Shown here: one piece after another, positions 46,605-64,000 of the stretch
How positions within the stretch are numbered: position 1 is the first letter of the stretch
How the letters are laid out: the number at the start of each line of letters is the position of its first letter
Source of the DNA: Candidatus Bathyarchaeota archaeon
GTDB lineage: Archaea > Thermoproteota > Bathyarchaeia > JAPDIZ01
Length of the DNA: 64,000 bases
NCBI GenBank assembly: GCA_029259355.1
Contig: JAPDIZ010000002.1
Coordinates: 372,001-436,000 of the forward strand
Direction of reading: 5' to 3'
The notes under the pieces: model-generated
What the model saw: the letters and a program-made list of their open reading frames with translations, nothing else
Told to the model about the DNA's origin: nothing
Database searches by the model: none
Program-made: the position numbers and the translations under genes

Positions 46605-47292
46605 GCACGAGAGGTTTAGAGGAGTTTACTGGGCTAAGCTAGAGGATGGATCTAGGAGGCTGGCTACCGAGAACTTAGCCCCAGGCAAAACCGTCTACAG
46701 GGAGAAGCTGGTTAGGTTTGGGGGAAAAGAATACAGGCTGTGGGATAGCTATAGGAGTAAACTAGCAGCCTCCATAGTCAAGGACATCTCCAACATCTAC
46801 ATAGAGCCTAGGCACAGAGTCCTCTACCTAGGAGCAGCTACCGGAACCACCGCCAGCCACGTCTCCGATATAGTTGGCAAGGAGGGGAAGGTGTTCTGCG
46901 TAGAGTTTGCGCCACGCGTCTTCAGAGAGCTCTTGAACAACGTCTGCGCTTTCCGCCAAAACATGTTCCCCATCCTCGCAGACGCTAGGTTTCCCGAAAG
47001 ATACAGGCACCTCGTTACCATGGTCGACGACATATACTGCGACATAGCTCAGCCTGAGCAAGCCAAGGTGGTGATAGCCAACGCGAGGATGTTCCTCAGG
47101 CTAGGCGGTGGCCTGCTCCTCGCGGTGAAAGCGAGGAGCATAGACGTGACCAAAACCCCCACCGAAGTATTCAGGCGCGAGATAGAGATTTTGGAGAGCG
47201 GAGGGTTTGAGGTGGAGGACGTAGCGCACCTAGAACCCTTCGACAGAGATCACGTTATGGTGGCTGCTAGGTATAGAGGTGGGGGAAGCTGA
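46585..47292 (+). CDS. flpA: Fibrillarin-like rRNA/tRNA 2'-O-methyltransferase
   Basis: The 235-residue enzyme has the SAM site VLYLGAATGTTASHVSDIVG, VFCVEFAPRVFRELL, and DDIYCDIAQPEQAKVVIANA. It is the catalytic subunit of archaeal C/D RNPs. GTG 46585 lies inside nop5, so the two subunits are translated together. Its stop overlaps the proposed CTG start of the DUF61 gene. Confidence 0.96.
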   Translation: MAVEVVEHERFRGVYWAKLEDGSRRLATENLAPGKTVYREKLVRFGGKEYRLWDSYRSKLAASIVKDISNIYIEPRHRVLYLGAATGTTASHVSDIVGKEGKVFCVEFAPRVFRELLNNVCAFRQNMFPILADARFPERYRHLVTMVDDIYCDIAQPEQAKVVIANARMFLRLGGGLLLAVKARSIDVTKTPTEVFRREIEILESGGFEVEDVAHLEPFDRDHVMVAARYRGGGS

Positions 47293-47735
47293 GGGAGAAG
47301 GTTTGGCGCAAGTTTCTTCGCGAAGAGATAAGGAAGCTCAACCAGCACCTACCAAAGCGGCGAGAATCGCTGCAAAGCGCTTTGAGCAAGGGGGATGTGG
47401 AGCTCGAAGCCGTGGATGGCTCGCAGATAGTGCTTGAGGAGAAAGACGTCAAGAAGTTAGCTGAGGAGGTTCCCAAGAGGCTCTGGAGTTCTGTCCACCT
47501 CCCGTTCATATTTCTGAGAGACCTCAGGCTCGGCCCCGGAACCTTCTACATAGTGGGTAGCGAAGCGGAAAGATTCGTGATCCACAAGCTTGTAGGAGAT
47601 GTTGAGGAAGACTTCGAGAAAGGGGTTGAGGCAAGCCCCTACATATACCGACCACAGGTACAGGAGCTTCTGAATAGGTTTAGGAGCTTAGTGGTTATCG
47701 GTTTCGGAACCGAGAACCTCGAAGCAGAGCTTTAG
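47289..47735 (+). CDS. DUF61/UPF0216 protein with apparent CTG start
   Basis: The conserved UPF0216 N-terminus (FLREEIRKLNQHLPKRRESL) is encoded upstream of the first usable TTG at 47382, and no ATG, GTG or TTG lies in frame before it. The frame is closed by TAG at 47274. The only sensible initiator is CTG 47289, forming CTGA with the fibrillarin stop and preceded by GGTGGGGG. The core continues SVHLPFIFLRDLRLGPGTFY and SEAERFVIHKLVG. About 148 residues. The function is unknown. If CTG is not used, the alternative is a truncated 117-residue product from 47382. Confidence 0.75.
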   Translation: MREKVWRKFLREEIRKLNQHLPKRRESLQSALSKGDVELEAVDGSQIVLEEKDVKKLAEEVPKRLWSSVHLPFIFLRDLRLGPGTFYIVGSEAERFVIHKLVGDVEEDFEKGVEASPYIYRPQVQELLNRFRSLVVIGFGTENLEAEL

Positions 47736-55270: not shown

Positions 55271-55509
55271 GTGAAGAGGGTGCCGCTCGTACACACGGCG
55301 GCGCGTCGAGTAAACCTAGGAGGAGTCCCTGAACGCGTCTCCGCGTTAACAGAGAGGTTAACAAGCACTTGCAGAGCCTACAGGAAAGAGGAGCCAGAGT
55401 CGTAGACATAAAGGTTCAGGCAGCTCCTGAACACTACCCCTCTACGAGGGGTGTGAACACCTACCTCATCATCTACGAGGCAGAGCCTTCTTTACCCTTT
55501 AAGGAGTGA
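55271..55509 (+). pseudogene. Small conserved-looking gene with one frameshift
   Basis: From GTG 55271 the frame reads MKRVPLVHTAARRVNLGGVP, ERVSALTERL. A continuing protein (NKHLQSLQERGARVVDIKVQ, AAPEHYPSTRGVNTYLIIYE) then appears in a different frame and ends at TGA 55507-55509. Loss of one A in GTTAACAAG near 55355-55362 explains the break, so this is either an assembly error or a recent mutation. The joined product is about 79 residues of unknown family. Its 3' end overlaps the convergent scpB by 37 bp. Confidence 0.5.
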
Positions 55510-56045
55510 GCCTCCCTAAAAAGCGCTTCCAGCTGCTTCCTCATTTTCGCTGGGTCTTTGCTTAGGTTGAAGTAGCTAGCGAAGAGATCAGTAGTCCTTA
55601 GCAGCTTGGTTCTACCAAGTTTCTCCCAAGACACAAGACCCATCTCAACTAGTTGCTTTATGTGCGCATATGCTTGGTGCCCCCTAACCTCAACGACTTC
55701 TGCTTGGGTAATGGGCTGTTTGTAGGCGATGTAGCTGAGAGTCTTAAGAGGCCCTGTCGTGAGCATGGGCTTTGCCGAAAGCCTCCACACCTTAGCCGCA
55801 TACTCTGGCTTAAGCTGCATAACGAAGCGCCCGTCCTCTAGCTCTAAGATCTCCAGCGCGCTCTCATCTACCCTGTACCTCGCAGCAAGGGTTTTAACGA
55901 GCTTTCTAAGCCTTTTCTCTGACCTTATCCCAGTAACTGAACTTAGCTCCTCGAGCGAAAGAGGCCTACCTGACACGTAGAGCGCAGCCTCGATCAACTG
56001 GAGAGCGTGCTTAGCAGAACCCTTGCTAGCCATTAAGCTGCTCAC
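55473..56045 (-). CDS. scpB: Segregation and condensation protein ScpB
   Basis: The 190-residue protein has two winged-helix repeats: ALQLIEAALYVSGRPLSLEE (first) and LKTLSYIAYKQPITQAEVVE, VRGHQAYAHIKQLVEMGLVS (second). It binds ScpA on the SMC ring. The start is ATG 56045 or 56033; both overlap scpA's end. Length is typical. Confidence 0.92.
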   Translation of the reverse strand: MSSLMASKGSAKHALQLIEAALYVSGRPLSLEELSSVTGIRSEKRLRKLVKTLAARYRVDESALEILELEDGRFVMQLKPEYAAKVWRLSAKPMLTTGPLKTLSYIAYKQPITQAEVVEVRGHQAYAHIKQLVEMGLVSWEKLGRTKLLRTTDLFASYFNLSKDPAKMRKQLEALFREAHSLKGKEGSAS

Positions 56046-56718
56046 CAGTACCTACGACCACGTAAACCTCGCCATACTCGCGCTCCTGCCACAGAGCTAC
56101 GTCGCCTCTTGTGGCGAGGAATAGCAGGAGAAGAAATACCCTAGCCAACTCCTTCCTGGAGGAAGCTTCCACAAGCTTCGAAAGAGCGATGATTCCCTTT
56201 CCTCCAAGCATCAGCTTGATCTTTTGCAAGAGCTCCTCCATCCTATCCTCTAGGTGTACGAAGAACTCGTCCGGCGGAGGAACAGCCTCGACAGGCTCTG
56301 GCAAAACAGGCTTCGGCGCTCTGCTTCGAGCAAGCTCCTCCTCAGCCTTAAGAACCTCGACTAAAGCGCTTATGAGCTCGTCTATGGAGGTGACGAGGGG
56401 TTGTTTGCGGAAGGGAAGCCTAATTGGGGGAGGGGTAATAGGCTTTTCCGCAGAAGCTCTCTGAAAAACTCTCTTCTCCTTAGCATACGACCTAAACAAG
56501 CTCTCTGCCTGCATCCTGTAGATGACTGAGGAGGTGAGCAGCGCGATCCCCGAGGCTACGAAGTCTACGTATCCCCTTCGCCTAATTTCACTGAGAAGCA
56601 GCTTGAGCAGAAGGGCAACGTTTACGTCCCACGGACGCACATGCTTTAGCTTCGACAAGTTAAACAAGATGTCTACGGGAGGCCTTAGCCAGATGGGCTT
56701 CTCAGCGTTTTCTGACAT
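56026..56718 (-). CDS. scpA: Segregation and condensation protein ScpA
   Basis: The 230-residue kleisin has an N-terminal domain (PVDILFNLSKLKHVRPWDVN; VNVALLLKLLLSEIRRRGYV) that grips the SMC neck and a C-terminal winged helix (LSKLVEASSRKELARVFLLL; FLATRGDVALWQEREYGEVY) that binds the other SMC head. It lies directly between smc and scpB, the classic operon order. Confidence 0.9.
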   Translation of the reverse strand: MSENAEKPIWLRPPVDILFNLSKLKHVRPWDVNVALLLKLLLSEIRRRGYVDFVASGIALLTSSVIYRMQAESLFRSYAKEKRVFQRASAEKPITPPPIRLPFRKQPLVTSIDELISALVEVLKAEEELARSRAPKPVLPEPVEAVPPPDEFFVHLEDRMEELLQKIKLMLGGKGIIALSKLVEASSRKELARVFLLLLFLATRGDVALWQEREYGEVYVVVGTGEQLNG

Positions 56719-56721
56719 CTT

Positions 56722-59700
56722 CTAAGCAACCACCTCGCCTATGCTCAGAGTCACCACATTGGAGACACCGTTCCTTAGGTAGACCCCAACCACGCGATCT
56801 GCGCGAGCGATCATAGCATCCTTAAGCGTAATGACTATGAACTGAGAGTCTTTTGAGAGCTCTCGGAGGAGCTCTGCAAGCCTCTCAGCGTTTCTAGCAT
56901 CTAGGTGGGCGTCGATTTCGTCGAAGATGTAGAACGGAAGCGGAGACATGCTCTGCATAGCTAGCAAGAAGGCCACGGCAGCCACCGACTTTTCTCCGCC
57001 GCTAGCGCCTGAGATGAGCCTAGGAGACTTCCCCGGAAACTGCGCTATGAGGTCTACTCCACCCGAGAACGGGTCTTCCTCGTTTTCGAGCTGTAGCCAA
57101 GCTTTTCCACCCGTTATCCTGTGGAAGTACTCGGCAAACTTTTCCTTGATGGCTCGATAAGCCTTCAAGAAGACTTCCCTCTTCTTAGCCTCTATCTCCC
57201 TCATGAACTCGATGATGGCTCTCTTCTCCTCCTCGAGCTGGTTGATCCTCTCCGAAAGCGACATGTAGTCTTGCTTCAGCGCATCGTACTGCTCCTCAGC
57301 CAAGAAGTTTATGTAGCCCAGCGATGCCAACTCACCCTCCAAGCGGTCGAGGATCTTCTCGTACTCGGAGATGGTTAGCGCAAGATCTCTAACGGGCTCG
57401 TGGTAGCCCAAGGAGCTAAGCTCGCTTAGCAACCCCTCCTCCTCAGCCTCAAGCCTCTGAATCTTCAGCTCGAGCACGTGCATGTCAGAGGTTAGCCGCT
57501 TCAGCTCGCTCTCGACAGCGCTTAGCTCGCTCCTTATTTCGCGAATCCGCTGCTCAACCACCCCCCTAACCTCTCTTCTGCTAGCGGCTTTGCTCTGAGC
57601 TTCAGCTCTCTCGTGCTCAAGCTTGGAGAGAGCCACTCTAGCATCATTCAGCCTCTGCTCGACTTGGCGTAACTCCTCCTCGACGTGGTGGGAAGCCTCC
57701 TCAAGCTCTCTCCTCCTCGCACAAAGCTCATCACGTTTTGCAGAGACATCCGGTATCTTGACCTCGGAGATTACCCTAATCTCTGCGTCAAGCGACGAAA
57801 GCTCCTTTTCCAGCTTAGAGAGCTCAGCTCTCCACCTAGAGAGTGCGCTGAGCAAAGCGCTTCTGCTCGGAGGCTGGCGAAGAGTTCTAAGCTTCTCAAC
57901 CTCCTCGCTTAGCTTTGACAGCAAGCTTTGGCTACGCTCAAGCTCTTCTTTGGTGCTTCTTAGCTCCTCCCTAAGAGCTTCTGACCGCTTGCGTAGTTGC
58001 TCAAGCTTCTGCTGGCTTTCGCCAATGCTTTCCTCAAGCGCATGTATCTGATCCTCAAGCGCATTCAACCGCTTCTCAAGCCTAGACGCTTCGCTTAAGA
58101 TCTGCTCCTTCTGAGCTATGGAGCGCTCCACTCTCCTCCTAAGCTCTCTAGCTAGAGCTTCATGCCTCTCAGCAGCTTCTGCAAGCGAGGAGAGCAAGGA
58201 TCGAATCTGATCAACCTCCTCGGAGCTTTGGAGGGTGCTGAGCATAGCCACTGGAGGCAGCGCCCCGCCCTCTACGAACATGGGTGAAAAAAGCTCTCCA
58301 GAGGGGGATATGGCGCGAAAACCTTCCAAAGCAGCGAGCATGGCATCCCTACTCGACTCGGATACGAGAACGTCCGAGAAGACGGCGTCTACCACCCGCC
58401 GAATATCATCTGAGCACTCGATTACGTCGCTCGCAAAAACTCTATATCCCTCACGCTTGTGCAGAGGAGGTATTGCAGACAAGGGTATTACCCTCGCCCT
58501 ACCCAAACCCTTCTCCTTAATCACTTTAAGGCACTCTATAGCAGACTCCCAATTCTCCACCAAGATAGCGTCTAGCCACTCTCTCGCAGCAGCTTCCAGC
58601 CGCGGCCTAAACCGCTTCGGAATCCTTACAAGCGAGCCAAGCCTACCCACGTATCCCTTGATAGCTCCCTCCCTCGCAAGCTTCTCAAGCTCCTCCTCAA
58701 GCCTAACCCCAGGAAACACCTCCTCGGCTACGGCTCGCTTAGCCTCATACTCCGAGAGGGTGTTTCTAGCTTTCTCGATGAGGCTCTTGACGCTTTGCAG
58801 CGTCTCCTCCACCACTTGGGTTTTCCTGCTCAGCTCTTCAACGAGGTTAGACAATCGCACCTCCTTTTCTCTGCTGAGCTGCTTTTGTCGAAAAAGCTCT
58901 TCTAGCTCCGCCCTGAGCTCGCTCAAGCGCCTTGCGTCTTGAGCAGCTCGCTTCTCGAGGAGCTGAGCGGTATCTTCGATGGCGGAGAGCTCAGCCATTA
59001 TAGCTTGCTTCTTGTGCCTAAGCTCGCTAACCCTATCGGCTAGGGCTCTCTCTTCAGAAAGCGCTTTCTCAAGCGTTTCATCGTATCCGCTTACACGCTT
59101 ATCTAACCACTGGAGCTTGCTACTGATACGCTCAACCGCTTTCCTAGCCCTGTCAGCTTTTGCCTGAAGCAGCTCCCTCTTTCTACTTAGCCTCTCAAGT
59201 TCCTCCTTAAGCTTCGCCCTTTCCTCAACAAGCTCCTTATCCTTCGAGGCGGCTTTAGCGAGCTCAGCGCGTATAGCGAGGAACTCTCTTTCCTTAGCAG
59301 AAGCTTCCGCCTCCAGCTTCGCTACTAGGGAAGATGCCCCCCCAATTTGCTTCTCGAGCTCTACGAGCTCTCTAGCCTCATCCTCAATACTCCTAACGAC
59401 CTGGTTAAACTCTTGCTCAGCTTCTGAGAGCTTTCTGAGGATCTCGTCTCTTTCTCTCTCTTTATTTTGGTAGAGTTGAGTGAGCTCCTCGTGCTCTATG
59501 CGAAGAACTTGTAGTCTCTGCTCAAGCGAGGCAAGCTTTGCTGATATAAGCTTCGCCTTAATAGACCTTATCTCCTCTTGAAGTACTCTGTGCCTGATGG
59601 CTTTGTTTCTCTCACGCTCAAGCTCTGAGATACGCTTCTCGACATCCTCCACCTTGGCTAGCGCAATCCTTAGGCTTACCTCAGCCTCCTCAAGCTCTCG

Positions 59701-60237
59701 CTGAGCTTGAGCCTTTTTCTCGTCATACTCCTCTATCCCCACGAGCTTCTCAATGATCTTCCTCCTCTCCTCTGAGCTCACCTCTGCGAGCCTCATCACC
59801 GTACCCTGCATTACTATGTTGTAGCCGTCGGGGCTGATCCCCGCCATAGCTAGGGTGTCGACGAGAGCTGTTCGCGAAATGCGCTTGCCGTTCAAGCGGT
59901 ATACGCTCTCGCCGCTGACGTCCACCTCTCTAGAAACGGTTACGGTGTCCGCATCTACAGGGATCTTCCTGTCGGAGTTGTCTAACTGTACAGAGACCCA
60001 AGCTCTCTGCGCTCTCCTACCTCCTCCGCCATCGAATATTATCTCGGAAAAACGGCTTGCTCTCAGCGATTTCGCGCTCAGCTCACCCAGCGCAAGCTTA
60101 ACCGCGTCAGCTATGTTGCTCTTTCCGCTGCCGTTTGGTCCGGTGATGGCGGTTAGGCCCCTGCCTAAGAGAATGGAAACCTTTTGGTTTCCGAAGGACT
60201 TGAAGCCACGCATCTCAATGCGCTTGATGTAGACCAG
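56722..60237 (-). CDS. smc: Chromosome segregation ATPase SMC, apparent CTG start
   Basis: The full SMC has N-terminal Walker A AITGPNGSGKSNIADAVKLA, two coiled-coil arms, a hinge near residues 510-640, and the C-terminal signature LISGASGGEKSVAAVAFLLA and Walker B FYIFDEIDAHLDARN. From the first ATG (60213) it would lack the conserved lead-in. Eight more codons from CTG 60237 give the canonical VYIKRIEMRGFKSFG with AGGAGGAGG six bases upstream. It organises chromosomes with ScpA and ScpB, encoded next. TATA-like AACTTATATG lies near 60290. Confidence 0.95.
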   Translation of the reverse strand: MVYIKRIEMRGFKSFGNQKVSILLGRGLTAITGPNGSGKSNIADAVKLALGELSAKSLRASRFSEIIFDGGGGRRAQRAWVSVQLDNSDRKIPVDADTVTVSREVDVSGESVYRLNGKRISRTALVDTLAMAGISPDGYNIVMQGTVMRLAEVSSEERRKIIEKLVGIEEYDEKKAQAQRELEEAEVSLRIALAKVEDVEKRISELERERNKAIRHRVLQEEIRSIKAKLISAKLASLEQRLQVLRIEHEELTQLYQNKERERDEILRKLSEAEQEFNQVVRSIEDEARELVELEKQIGGASSLVAKLEAEASAKEREFLAIRAELAKAASKDKELVEERAKLKEELERLSRKRELLQAKADRARKAVERISSKLQWLDKRVSGYDETLEKALSEERALADRVSELRHKKQAIMAELSAIEDTAQLLEKRAAQDARRLSELRAELEELFRQKQLSREKEVRLSNLVEELSRKTQVVEETLQSVKSLIEKARNTLSEYEAKRAVAEEVFPGVRLEEELEKLAREGAIKGYVGRLGSLVRIPKRFRPRLEAAAREWLDAILVENWESAIECLKVIKEKGLGRARVIPLSAIPPLHKREGYRVFASDVIECSDDIRRVVDAVFSDVLVSESSRDAMLAALEGFRAISPSGELFSPMFVEGGALPPVAMLSTLQSSEEVDQIRSLLSSLAEAAERHEALARELRRRVERSIAQKEQILSEASRLEKRLNALEDQIHALEESIGESQQKLEQLRKRSEALREELRSTKEELERSQSLLSKLSEEVEKLRTLRQPPSRSALLSALSRWRAELSKLEKELSSLDAEIRVISEVKIPDVSAKRDELCARRRELEEASHHVEEELRQVEQRLNDARVALSKLEHERAEAQSKAASRREVRGVVEQRIREIRSELSAVESELKRLTSDMHVLELKIQRLEAEEEGLLSELSSLGYHEPVRDLALTISEYEKILDRLEGELASLGYINFLAEEQYDALKQDYMSLSERINQLEEEKRAIIEFMREIEAKKREVFLKAYRAIKEKFAEYFHRITGGKAWLQLENEEDPFSGGVDLIAQFPGKSPRLISGASGGEKSVAAVAFLLAMQSMSPLPFYIFDEIDAHLDARNAERLAELLRELSKDSQFIVITLKDAMIARADRVVGVYLRNGVSNVVTLSIGEVVA

Positions 60238-60358
60238 CTCTTTCCTCCTCCTTGGGTGCGGAGGCTGGGAAAAGCCATCCGTTGGCTACGCATATAAGTT
60301 TAATACAAATACGTTGACTAAAATATGTAGCTCTGTGCACAAAGTTTAAAACAACAAG

Positions 60359-60909
60359 TCAGCTCCGCCGCAAACGGTACAGGCATGGGTTTACTCTTGG
60401 TATGAGAGCGGCTACGACAGCCATCTTAGTTATCTCAAAGCGAGTATAATGCTTCTTGGTGAGAAAGCCTATCGCCCCAAACTTCTCGCCGATCTGCTGC
60501 ACACCGCTTATCCTCTCCATAACCTCCTCAACCTCCACTCCCTTGAAGAAGACTTCCTCCACCACCTCGGGCGGGTATTCGAAGAGCGGGCTCCCCCCAG
60601 CGTAATCAAGCCATCCCTATCGGCTATAGCAGCTAGTTGTGCGTCAAAGTACCCAGACACCGTCTTTGGGAAGGGAACTATTCCAGCCTCGATTCCCACT
60701 CCAAAAACGCTTCTCTCAACCTTTTCCAGCGCCCCAACCGCTCGTTTTACCGCTCCCTCCAGTATCTGATCCCATCCAACTGGTTGAGGAGGTATTCCAG
60801 TCTCAACGCTGACTCCAACAACCCTCGAGCTTGGGAAAAAAGCCCTGAAAGCGCTTCTCGTTGCCCTAACCTTGACGGGGTTTTTCGAGCCCACCGCGAC
60901 TAGCAGCAT
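60359..60909 (-). pseudogene. DUF84 inosine/xanthosine triphosphatase with one frameshift
   Basis: The N-terminal frame (MLLVAVGSKNPVKVRATRSA; AGIVPFPKTVSGYFDAQLAA) loses sense after DGLITLGG. The rest continues in another frame: FEYPPEVVEEVFFKGVEVEE, RISGVQQIGEKFGAIGFLTK, ending ALIPRVNP. Both parts are conserved pieces of the YjjX/DUF84 family (about 180 residues), so one indel at the C-run near 60592-60598 is the likely cause. The protein would cleanse ITP/XTP. It follows the PP-loop gene by 2 bp in the same operon. Confidence 0.8.
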
Positions 60910-61922: not shown

Positions 61923-62736
61923 ATCGCCTAACCCTTTGCTGATAGGTCCTTATAGCTCTCCAAAGGTCGATCTTCCTAAAGTCTGGCCAGTAGACATCCA
62001 AGAAAACGAGCTCACTGTAGGCGCACTGCCACAGGAGGAAGTTGCTCAAGCGCTCCTCTCCTGAAGTTCGGATGACCAAGTCTAGCTCGGGCTTGGGGAG
62101 ATGCGACGTGTAGAGGTACTCCTCGATAACTCCTTCGTCCACGTCCTCAGGCGCGATCTCTCCCGCTCTAGCCTTTTCGACGATCTTCCTAACAGCATCC
62201 ACTATCTCGGCTCTTCCCCCATAGGCTATGGCTATGTTGAGGTAATGGCTGTCGTAGTCCTTGGTAGCCTCCTCAAGCTCTCTGAGAACCTCTCTAACGC
62301 TCTCAGGTAAAAACTCGAGCCTACCTATGGCCTTAACCCTAACCCTTACCTCATGTACCCTGTCGCTTTGTAACATCTTCCTTAGCTTGTTTTCCACTAT
62401 TTCCATGATCTTTTCTACCTCTTCTCTACTCCTCTGGAAGTTCTCGGTTGAGAAGACGTACAGGGTTACTGCCTTGATCCCCAGCTCCCAGCACCACTCC
62501 AAAACCTCCTCGACTCTGTCTGCGCCTATCTCGTGACCAGCCCAAGGCGGGAGGCCCCTCTCTCTAGCCCACCTCCGGTTCCCATCGAGGATTATGCCGA
62601 TGTGCTCAGGTAGGTTGCCGTTGGATATCTGGCGCCTAAGCCTCCCCTCGTACACCTTGTACACTAAGGAGTTGGTGGATAGGAAGTCAATTAGCTTGTA
62701 GAGAGTTTTGGCTAACTTACCACTTGGCAACTTCAC
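61912..62736 (-). CDS. uppS: cis-Polyprenyl diphosphate synthase (UppS family)
   Basis: The 274-residue protein has the family's HIGIILDGNRRWARERGLPP with catalytic Asp, a conserved VTLYVFSTENFQRS and the C-terminal PELDLVIRTSGEERLSNFLL. It makes the long cis-polyprenyl diphosphate from which archaeal dolichol-type sugar carriers derive. A 35-residue N-terminal extension precedes the core. It overlaps the DUF373 gene by 4 bp. Confidence 0.94.
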   Translation of the reverse strand: MKLPSGKLAKTLYKLIDFLSTNSLVYKVYEGRLRRQISNGNLPEHIGIILDGNRRWARERGLPPWAGHEIGADRVEEVLEWCWELGIKAVTLYVFSTENFQRSREEVEKIMEIVENKLRKMLQSDRVHEVRVRVKAIGRLEFLPESVREVLRELEEATKDYDSHYLNIAIAYGGRAEIVDAVRKIVEKARAGEIAPEDVDEGVIEEYLYTSHLPKPELDLVIRTSGEERLSNFLLWQCAYSELVFLDVYWPDFRKIDLWRAIRTYQQRVRRFGA

Positions 62737-63907
62737 CCCTTCCCCGTGAAGTATCGAGTAGTCTTCCTATAGAGCACGTACACAAGGAGTATTAAGGTTA
62801 TGAAGAGCACCAAGCCCGTATAGACGGTTGCGATCAAAGACTCGATGGGGGCATATGCCGGGCTGGGGGCGAGGAGAACAGCAGAGACATCATAGGCTAC
62901 GTATCTGAGCCAGATGACGGCTGCGAAAACCACTATAGCCCCCCAAAACCTCGGGTTTTTGGTGAAGAAGTAGTGAACCATCCACCCAATCAGCGCTATG
63001 GACGCTGCTACAACAGCTAGGTCTACGGTGTAGCGGCTTAGGAAGACGCCGACTATGGTTGGAAGCACACCCATCCAAAACGATGGGTTGTCCCAGAAGG
63101 GAGGACCCCTTATGTTGGTGACTACATAGTTGTAAGTGTATAGCCCACCGACGTATAAGCCGACGAGAAGAACAATCACTCCAACGATGTTGGCTAGCAA
63201 CACTATTGGGCCCGTAGGTCCAGGCAAAGCGATGGATTCTACGAACGCCCGCACCCTCTCGTCTATTCCAAAACCTCTTACAGCAAATACTAGCCCAAGA
63301 ACTAGAACGAGCGCAATAGCCACGTACGTCAAGAGGCCTAGAGCCCAGAAGACACCGACTATTAGAAGGAGAAGTCCTGGGACGCCTAGGAACCACTTAG
63401 AGTAAAGCGGGTCTTCCCACACCTTCTTCGCATAGCGCCAGAAGACAGCCCAGGTCTCCTCTATGGACCTGCTGTGCCTTATCACGATCCTCCTTACAGA
63501 CAAGATGGGTATCCTCGACTGAATTATCGGAATGACCACTTCGTCGTCGTAGCCGTCGGTCACCAGTATAGCGCCATCTGCCTTGATCTTGGATAAAACC
63601 TCTGAGAGGCGCTCAGCGACAGCTCTGTCAGCGAAGATGCCTCCGCTGCTTGAGCCTGCTATGGTTACGACCTCGTATTGCTCTCCCTTAGAAGAAGTGG
63701 AGAGCTCGTCGTAGAGCCTAACCGCTTCGAAGATGGCGTTGGCATCCGCCTCCTCAGGATCCTTTAACGCGTCTTAACCGCTACCTCGAGGTTTTGCTCC
63801 CTACCGATGATGGGGGTTTCGACGCCAACCTTTTGGCCAATGTCATCGTCTCTGTCTACGCAGAGTATGATTACGGTGTGATCTTCAGGCTTCTTCGCAT
63901 CCTTCAA
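62733..63907 (-). pseudogene. DUF373 membrane protein with one frameshift
   Basis: An N-terminal cytosolic domain and about seven transmembrane helices form an archaeal DUF373 protein. The start segment is [20 protein letters not shown] and [17 protein letters not shown], but it then hits a stop (TAA). The continuation [20 protein letters not shown]... is in another frame, so one base is missing near 63768-63776. Beyond it the frame is intact to 62733 (GFGIDERVRAFVESIALPGP region in the middle). TTG 63907 is the likeliest start; the frame is open further right to the window end, where an upstream coding region (residues [20 protein letters not shown]) may belong to another gene. Confidence 0.75.
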
Positions 63908-64000
63908 GGAACTTTGCTCCAGCACTCCTTTGCTAAGAATAGATGAAGTCTTTCCATCGATAAAATACGTTTTGCATGCAGAGAGCTTAACTTTCGAGCA

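Follow-up and report, generated by a model that had tools for sequence, protein, structure and literature searches.

The window, that is, the whole stretch of 64,000 nucleotides that was analysed, carries on its minus strand an smc gene followed by genes for ScpA and ScpB. The features considered around the start of smc are as follows.

56722..60237, minus strand: smc coding sequence of 1171 codons and a stop (SMC_N, SMC_hinge), matching TIGR02169 positions 1-1164 of 1165
60235..60237, minus strand: CTG, proposed start codon of smc (sequence, orthologue column, family models, solved chains)
60244..60252, minus strand: Shine-Dalgarno-like AGGAGGAGG, 6 nt before the CTG (16S 3' end ...CACCTCCTTA)
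60211..60213, minus strand: first in-frame ATG, rejected as smc start, since its use would cost conserved N-terminal residues
60276..60278, minus strand: out-of-frame ATG upstream of smc, in frame only if the assembly misses one base (frame worked out by hand)
56026..56718, minus strand: scpA-like gene just downstream of smc (PF02616, 26.9 bits with a cut-off of 24.6, and PF04824)
55473..56045, minus strand: scpB gene (PF04079)

The gene product is a full-length SMC, with the SMC_N domain at residues 3-1159 and SMC_hinge at residues 527-632. Its score with TIGR02169 is just below the cut-off of that model (694.6 and 729.4, respectively), and its score with TIGR02168 (611.3) is above the cut-off of 567.35. 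The ScpA/ScpB neighbours are present, as for canonical prokaryotic SMC.

The stop-to-stop frame of smc (56722-60285, minus strand) contains none of the usual starts (ATG, GTG or TTG) in the 16 codons from the upstream stop to the CTG, and the first usual start, ATG 60213-60211, is located 8 codons downstream of it. On the minus strand, AGGAGGAGG (60252-60244) is followed by a 6-nt spacer, AAAGAG, by the CTG (60237-60235) and by the segment encoding VYIKRIEMRGFKSFG; the codons 3' of the CTG are GTC TAC ATC AAG CGC ATT GAG ATG CGT GGC TTC AAG TCC TTC GGA. The original prediction, that the SMC lead-in is encoded upstream of the first ATG, from CTG 60237, with a ribosome site six bases before it, is therefore confirmed in the sequence. 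The motif is frequent in this genome: AGGAGGAGG occurs 83 times on both strands of the 864 kb sampled, and 4 of the 83 copies, including that of smc, have CTG at exactly the same spacing, so that the motif alone is no proof of a CTG start. The smc case stands above chance because homology reaches the N-terminus. Position 1 of TIGR02169 corresponds to the second residue after the CTG, and in the three best solved SMC chains residue 2 is aligned with the residue after the CTG, which places residue 1 at the CTG itself.

ATG 60213 is the first usual start in frame, and a protein started there would lack the first eight residues of SMC. It was rejected because part of the conserved N-terminal block would be lost: the missing stretch is recognisable in 50 orthologues and matches the N-terminus of the three best solved chains. 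Besides, the Shine-Dalgarno element ends 30 nt before this ATG, and in two orthologues with CTG at the same place (G030 and G020) the first usual start occurs 23 codons after the CTG. A start at ATG 60213 is thus hardly credible.

SMC proteins with E below 1e-49 numbered 57, that of this genome included, and 50 of them were inspected at the start column (G009, G015, G021, G031, G036, G054 and G058 were left out of the count). Among these 50 class-level orthologues, again with the gene studied here, the column holds ATG in 23, TTG in 19, CTG in 5, GTG in 2 and TTA in 1, the latter being directly followed by ATG. No usual start was found from the upstream stop to the column in 43 of the 50 (the exceptions are L015, L025, L026, L037, L042, L050 and L052), so that a longer N-terminus of SMC is not expected. 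The five genes with CTG in the column belong to G000 (this genome), G002, G030, G020 and G057, and the first four have no usual start upstream of the CTG as far as the stop. In G030 and G020 a single codon separates the stop from the CTG, and the next usual start is 23 codons on; in G002 the next usual start is 6 codons on; and G057 is ambiguous, having a TTG two codons upstream of its CTG. Within smc of this genome, CTG accounts for 18 of 124 CTN leucine codons. A CTG start of smc, as had been proposed, is thus supported by the N-terminal homology and by CTG in the same column of four other genomes. In a tree of the 50 SMC fragments the CTG label requires 4 changes, of which at least 2 are forced by well-supported branches, and it is not clustered beyond chance (71 of 500 shuffles were as low). 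The tree cannot separate gain from loss, and CTG in SMC may either have been gained more than once or have been gained and lost.

The apparent CTG might also result from a sequencing error, the true codon at 60237-60235 being ATG, GTG or TTG, or a base having been lost from the assembly between 60278 and 60237, which would make ATG 60278 the start of a protein with a short N-terminal extension. AAA and GGAGGAGG runs are indeed present between this ATG and the CTG, and two genes near smc in this 9-contig assembly are each split by a frameshift.

60511..60909, minus strand: DUF84 (NTPase) gene just upstream of smc, with a frameshift near a GGGGGG run; its C-terminal half goes on in another frame, to about 60360
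62733..64000, minus strand: DUF373 gene, split, with the N-terminal part in another frame; a 345-aa piece matches from model position 37

The split of the DUF84 gene reflects either an assembly indel or a pseudogene. The two frameshifts imply that indel errors or pseudogenes exist near smc, and that base errors are possible. However, the frameshifts seen are indels and not substitutions, and three separate genomes (G002, G030 and G020) have CTG in this column, likewise with no usual start upstream; the contexts TAA-CTA-CTG and TAG-CGG-CTG leave no space for one. The lack of an upstream usual start in 43 of 50 orthologues and the prominence of CTG in the genome-wide sample (see below) also argue against an error, which is regarded as very unlikely.

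That CTG initiation is a habit of this organism was assessed with 800 kb of its genome beside the window (864 kb in all) and 1.6 Mb from six relatives. In 117 genes of this genome with start columns shared with relatives, the usual starts were ATG in 46 (39%), TTG in 40 (34%) and GTG in 31 (26%). A 5-nt Shine-Dalgarno match preceded 35-48% of the genes with usual starts, depending on the codon, compared with 16% of random coding positions. The codon test used non-shadow ORFs with a minimum length of 120 codons, and for each codon of their 5' zones without a usual start the presence of a Shine-Dalgarno 5-mer at -15..-4 was recorded. This survey of ribosome sites followed by CTG, which had been suggested as a check, placed CTG first of 58 codons in the 864 kb, with 14 of 81 occurrences (350 of 5721 for the other codons, p 0.0004, or about 0.025 after correction for 58 codons). 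With SMC and DUF61, which had prompted the idea, removed, the count was 12 of 79 (p 0.003). The link is confined to -15..-4, as CTG ranked only 9th to 31st of codons in five shifted distance windows in the same genome. In four sets of relatives CTG was non-significant in this test (p 0.14 in G049, and too few CTG to list in the other three).

In the column test, the start position of a relative was taken as the reference, and a usual start was absent between 25 codons upstream and 6 codons downstream of it in 73 of 801 genes from seven genomes. CTG was found in 9 of these, CTT in 3, CTC in 1 and CTA in 1 (binomial p 0.0004 at a share of 20%, the approximate proportion of CTG among the CTN codons of the sampled genes; one gene may count under several codons). 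The nine are not independent of the finding itself, since SMC of two genomes (G000 and G030) and DUF61 of this genome are among them; weak members are G030_5851, counted under CTT and ATC as well, and the ABC-like protein G049_10924. A Shine-Dalgarno count with no gene filter did not single out CTG (CTG 12, CTC 10, CTT 10, CTA 6, AAG 13, AGG 12, GAG 12), and when only cases were counted in which the 8 codons that follow contain no usual start, the numbers were CTG 5, CTC 6, CTT 4 and CTA 4. Nor was CTG singled out when in-register Shine-Dalgarno hexamers were counted against the following codon; this count was dropped as uninformative, because purine-rich coding sequence swamps it. Among the matches listed for a plain search for alignments extending past the first usual start, antisense shadow ORFs and frameshifts were numerous, and this search was replaced by the non-shadow, column-based tests.

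The second CTG case named in the original prediction, a DUF61 gene, is located in the same window on the opposite strand.

47289..47735, plus strand: DUF61 gene from CTG 47289-47291, with a family match; the next usual start is 31 codons later
47276..47281, plus strand: GAGGTG, Shine-Dalgarno-like element, 7 nt before the DUF61 CTG

Its 5' context reads TAG-AGG-TGG-GGG-AAG-CTG, and the case was found as described. The N-termini of DUF61 orthologues are too variable for a common start column, and only G002 was seen to have ATG opposite the CTG. In a looser list of 16 ORFs with a Shine-Dalgarno element and CTG, 10 have a best-scoring family match that reaches upstream of the first usual start (9 by Pfam and uS3 by NCBIfam). 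Besides SMC and DUF61, the ten comprise the following loci of this genome.

L100: ribosomal protein uS3; NF003219 position 3 at residue 12, which puts position 1 on the CTG, residue 10
L176: TatD; PRK10812 position 1 coincides with the CTG, and two further models are no more than two residues off
L183: TrmY; PRK02135 within one residue of the CTG
L105: MinD-like ATPase; CTG directly after a stop, TIGR01968 position 1 on the CTG
L181: enoyl-CoA hydratase; best family match before the first usual start
L106: PIN-domain protein; best family match before the first usual start
L180: CxxCxxCC protein; best family match before the first usual start
L094: flippase-like membrane protein; best family match before the first usual start

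For uS3, residue 1 falls at the CTG in 7 of the 8 solved chains ranked 2 to 9, and one residue off in the eighth. The solved chains do not settle the start position of TrmY, and the CbiA match of the MinD-like ATPase precedes the first usual start by just one residue. For L089, a glycosyltransferase, and L187, an iron-sulfur protein, only lower-scoring matches extend before the first usual start, in a nucleotidyltransferase (L179) family matches begin later than it, and no family was found for the candidates L093 and L182. In L107 an ATG located eight codons downstream of the CTG seems to be the correct start.

In a stricter list, 5 of 12 CTG ORFs (SMC, DUF61, flippase, MinD-like ATPase and TrmY) and none of 24 controls have a best Pfam family match that reaches upstream of the first usual start (p 0.002); any Pfam match is present in 9 of these 24. 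The controls, CTC, CTT or CTA ORFs from which one also present in the CTG list and one listed twice were removed, apply to the stricter list only. Inclusion of NCBIfam adds uS3 and gives 6 of 12 (p 0.0005); of the 24 controls, 9 were compared with NCBIfam, at a stricter E-value threshold than that applied to the CTG ORFs. An ACT-domain protein (L094:8971) was left uncounted, its NCBIfam match starting even before its CTG. In one control, an ABC protein (L178), a lower-ranking NCBIfam match, with the central part of a fused ABC protein, started two residues before the usual start.

The CTG excess in this genome corresponds to about nine genes. Because fewer than half of the usual starts carry a detectable Shine-Dalgarno element, the share of genes starting at CTG may be put at 1-3%, which is the authors' estimate. 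CTG initiation as a habit of the organism thus holds as a minor share, to which the codon test and eight further genes point, but not as the dominant mode.

The 3' end of the 16S rRNA on contig C6, also suggested as a check, reads ...ATCACCTCCTTA and contains CACCTCCTTA, which is complementary to AGGAGGAGG (the complement to the Shine-Dalgarno element was read by eye). This 16S perhaps belongs to another organism: since contig C7 carries a second, different 16S fragment, that of C6 is not surely from the same organism as the window. Both are archaeal and 87.6% identical over 776 bases, and they represent either contamination or divergent copies. The whole genome has 36 Rfam tRNA matches, only 2 of them on the 652-kb C1, the matches being concentrated on C2, C3, C6 and C7. 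ARAGORN found 3 tRNA genes in 40 fetched stretches of this genome, the same as the 3 Rfam matches located there. The tRNA genes of the scanned stretches and the window are for Cys, Gly and Val only, with no initiator tRNA among them.

The position of the CTG, the N-terminal homology, the recurrence of the codon and its specific association with a Shine-Dalgarno element are best explained if smc is translated from CTG 60237 by means of this element and initiator Met-tRNA, CTG being a rare fourth NTG start of perhaps 1-3% of genes. This explanation is considered highly probable. The Shine-Dalgarno element would pair with the 3' end of 16S rRNA and position the 30S subunit so that the CTG occupies the P site. 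Initiation at CTG would then be carried out by the ordinary initiator Met-tRNA, with the anticodon CAU, despite a first-position C-U mismatch, and SMC would most likely begin with Met, followed by VYIKRIEMRGFKSFG. A first-position U-U pair is apparently accepted already in about a third of starts (TTG), and CTG would be the fourth and rarer member of the NTG series.

Initiation at CTG should be weaker than at ATG, and this codon might therefore serve as a deliberately weak start that holds SMC scarce or controlled, rather than as one of several tolerated codons; the occurrence of CTG in SMC of several lineages is in keeping with this. However, the Shine-Dalgarno element of smc is near perfect, and uS3, which is required in large amounts, apparently begins at CTG as well. 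There is also no sign that SMC is special in its start codon, since ATG makes up 23 of 50 in its column, within the range of 39% to 68% in the seven sampled genomes. A weak start of this kind is judged improbable, and any effect of the CTG on SMC dosage would be hypothetical. CTG as a tolerated fourth start codon is the preferred reading.

It may also be supposed, with slightly less confidence than in the opposite, that initiation in this lineage is relaxed more generally, the first codon position being hardly checked. In this case all four NTG codons would start genes, CTG routinely (uS3, SMC), and ACG (an ABC-transporter gene in L180 on C2) and ATA (a uL15-like gene of G035) now and then, and standard tools would misplace the starts of some percent of the genes.

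CTG is on the NCBI list of allowed prokaryotic starts. Its use here would extend a known mechanism and would not represent a new one. A review (PMC7531240) names AUG, GUG and UUG as archaeal starts, CUG being absent from its main text. The initiation outlined above resembles that of the systems it covers in being Shine-Dalgarno-led, in using GUG and UUG beside AUG and in a presumed Met-initiator tRNA, but differs in that CUG is recurrent in this genome. For HVO_1510 of Haloferax (PMC8305020) an in-frame CTG was proposed as an atypical start, and peptides upstream of the next start were seen. The two cases are alike in that an in-frame CTG is proposed for a conserved gene; in HVO_1510, however, an out-of-frame ATG with slippage is still possible, whereas here several unrelated genes and the SMC orthologues point to CTG. 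Mass spectrometry of Haloferax volcanii (PMC12482152) lists CTG starts for the small proteins of sRNA_7, sRNA_23 and sRNA_81, which are small ORFs of sRNAs, in contrast to the conserved housekeeping genes of this archaeon. In a mycobacterial reporter selection behind a Shine-Dalgarno element (PMC4633059), TTG was enriched (28.7%) and CTG was not (0.03%); thus, mycobacteria reject CTG in this position, while this archaeon seems to accept it. No account of CTG starts recurring among the conserved genes of a single archaeal genome came up in the literature search, which mostly did not extend to subscription journals.

If conserved genes, including one for a ribosomal protein, start at CTG, the N-termini of such proteins would be mis-annotated in this lineage: Prodigal considers only ATG, GTG and TTG (PMC2848648), and standard gene finders would therefore mis-start these genes. 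A genome with CTG starts may also be a natural system for start-codon stringency in archaea (aIF1, aIF2 and initiator tRNA).

Codons other than the usual ones were also noted at start columns elsewhere. CTG stands opposite usual starts of relatives in an Alba-like gene (G038), in a PurP-like gene and one further gene (G035) and in an SRP19-like gene (G049), the latter having also a usual start 14 codons upstream of the CTG; these names were given by eye, with no family search. An ABC-transporter ATPase gene on C2 (L180:440-1447, plus strand) has no usual start near its N-terminus and carries ACG in the column, where 3 of the 5 relatives shown have ATG, ATG and GTG; an ACG start or an indel is possible. 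An ACG start for HisH (L175) was rejected, the start of its relative being six codons further up, past a stop present here. In a gene of G035 (L207, minus strand, strand coordinate 6139), uL15-like as named by eye, a TAG stop is followed by AGG TGG ATA ACG ATA, with no usual start within 25 codons. The last ATA is opposite the TTG starts of two relatives, and an ATA start of this gene is possible.
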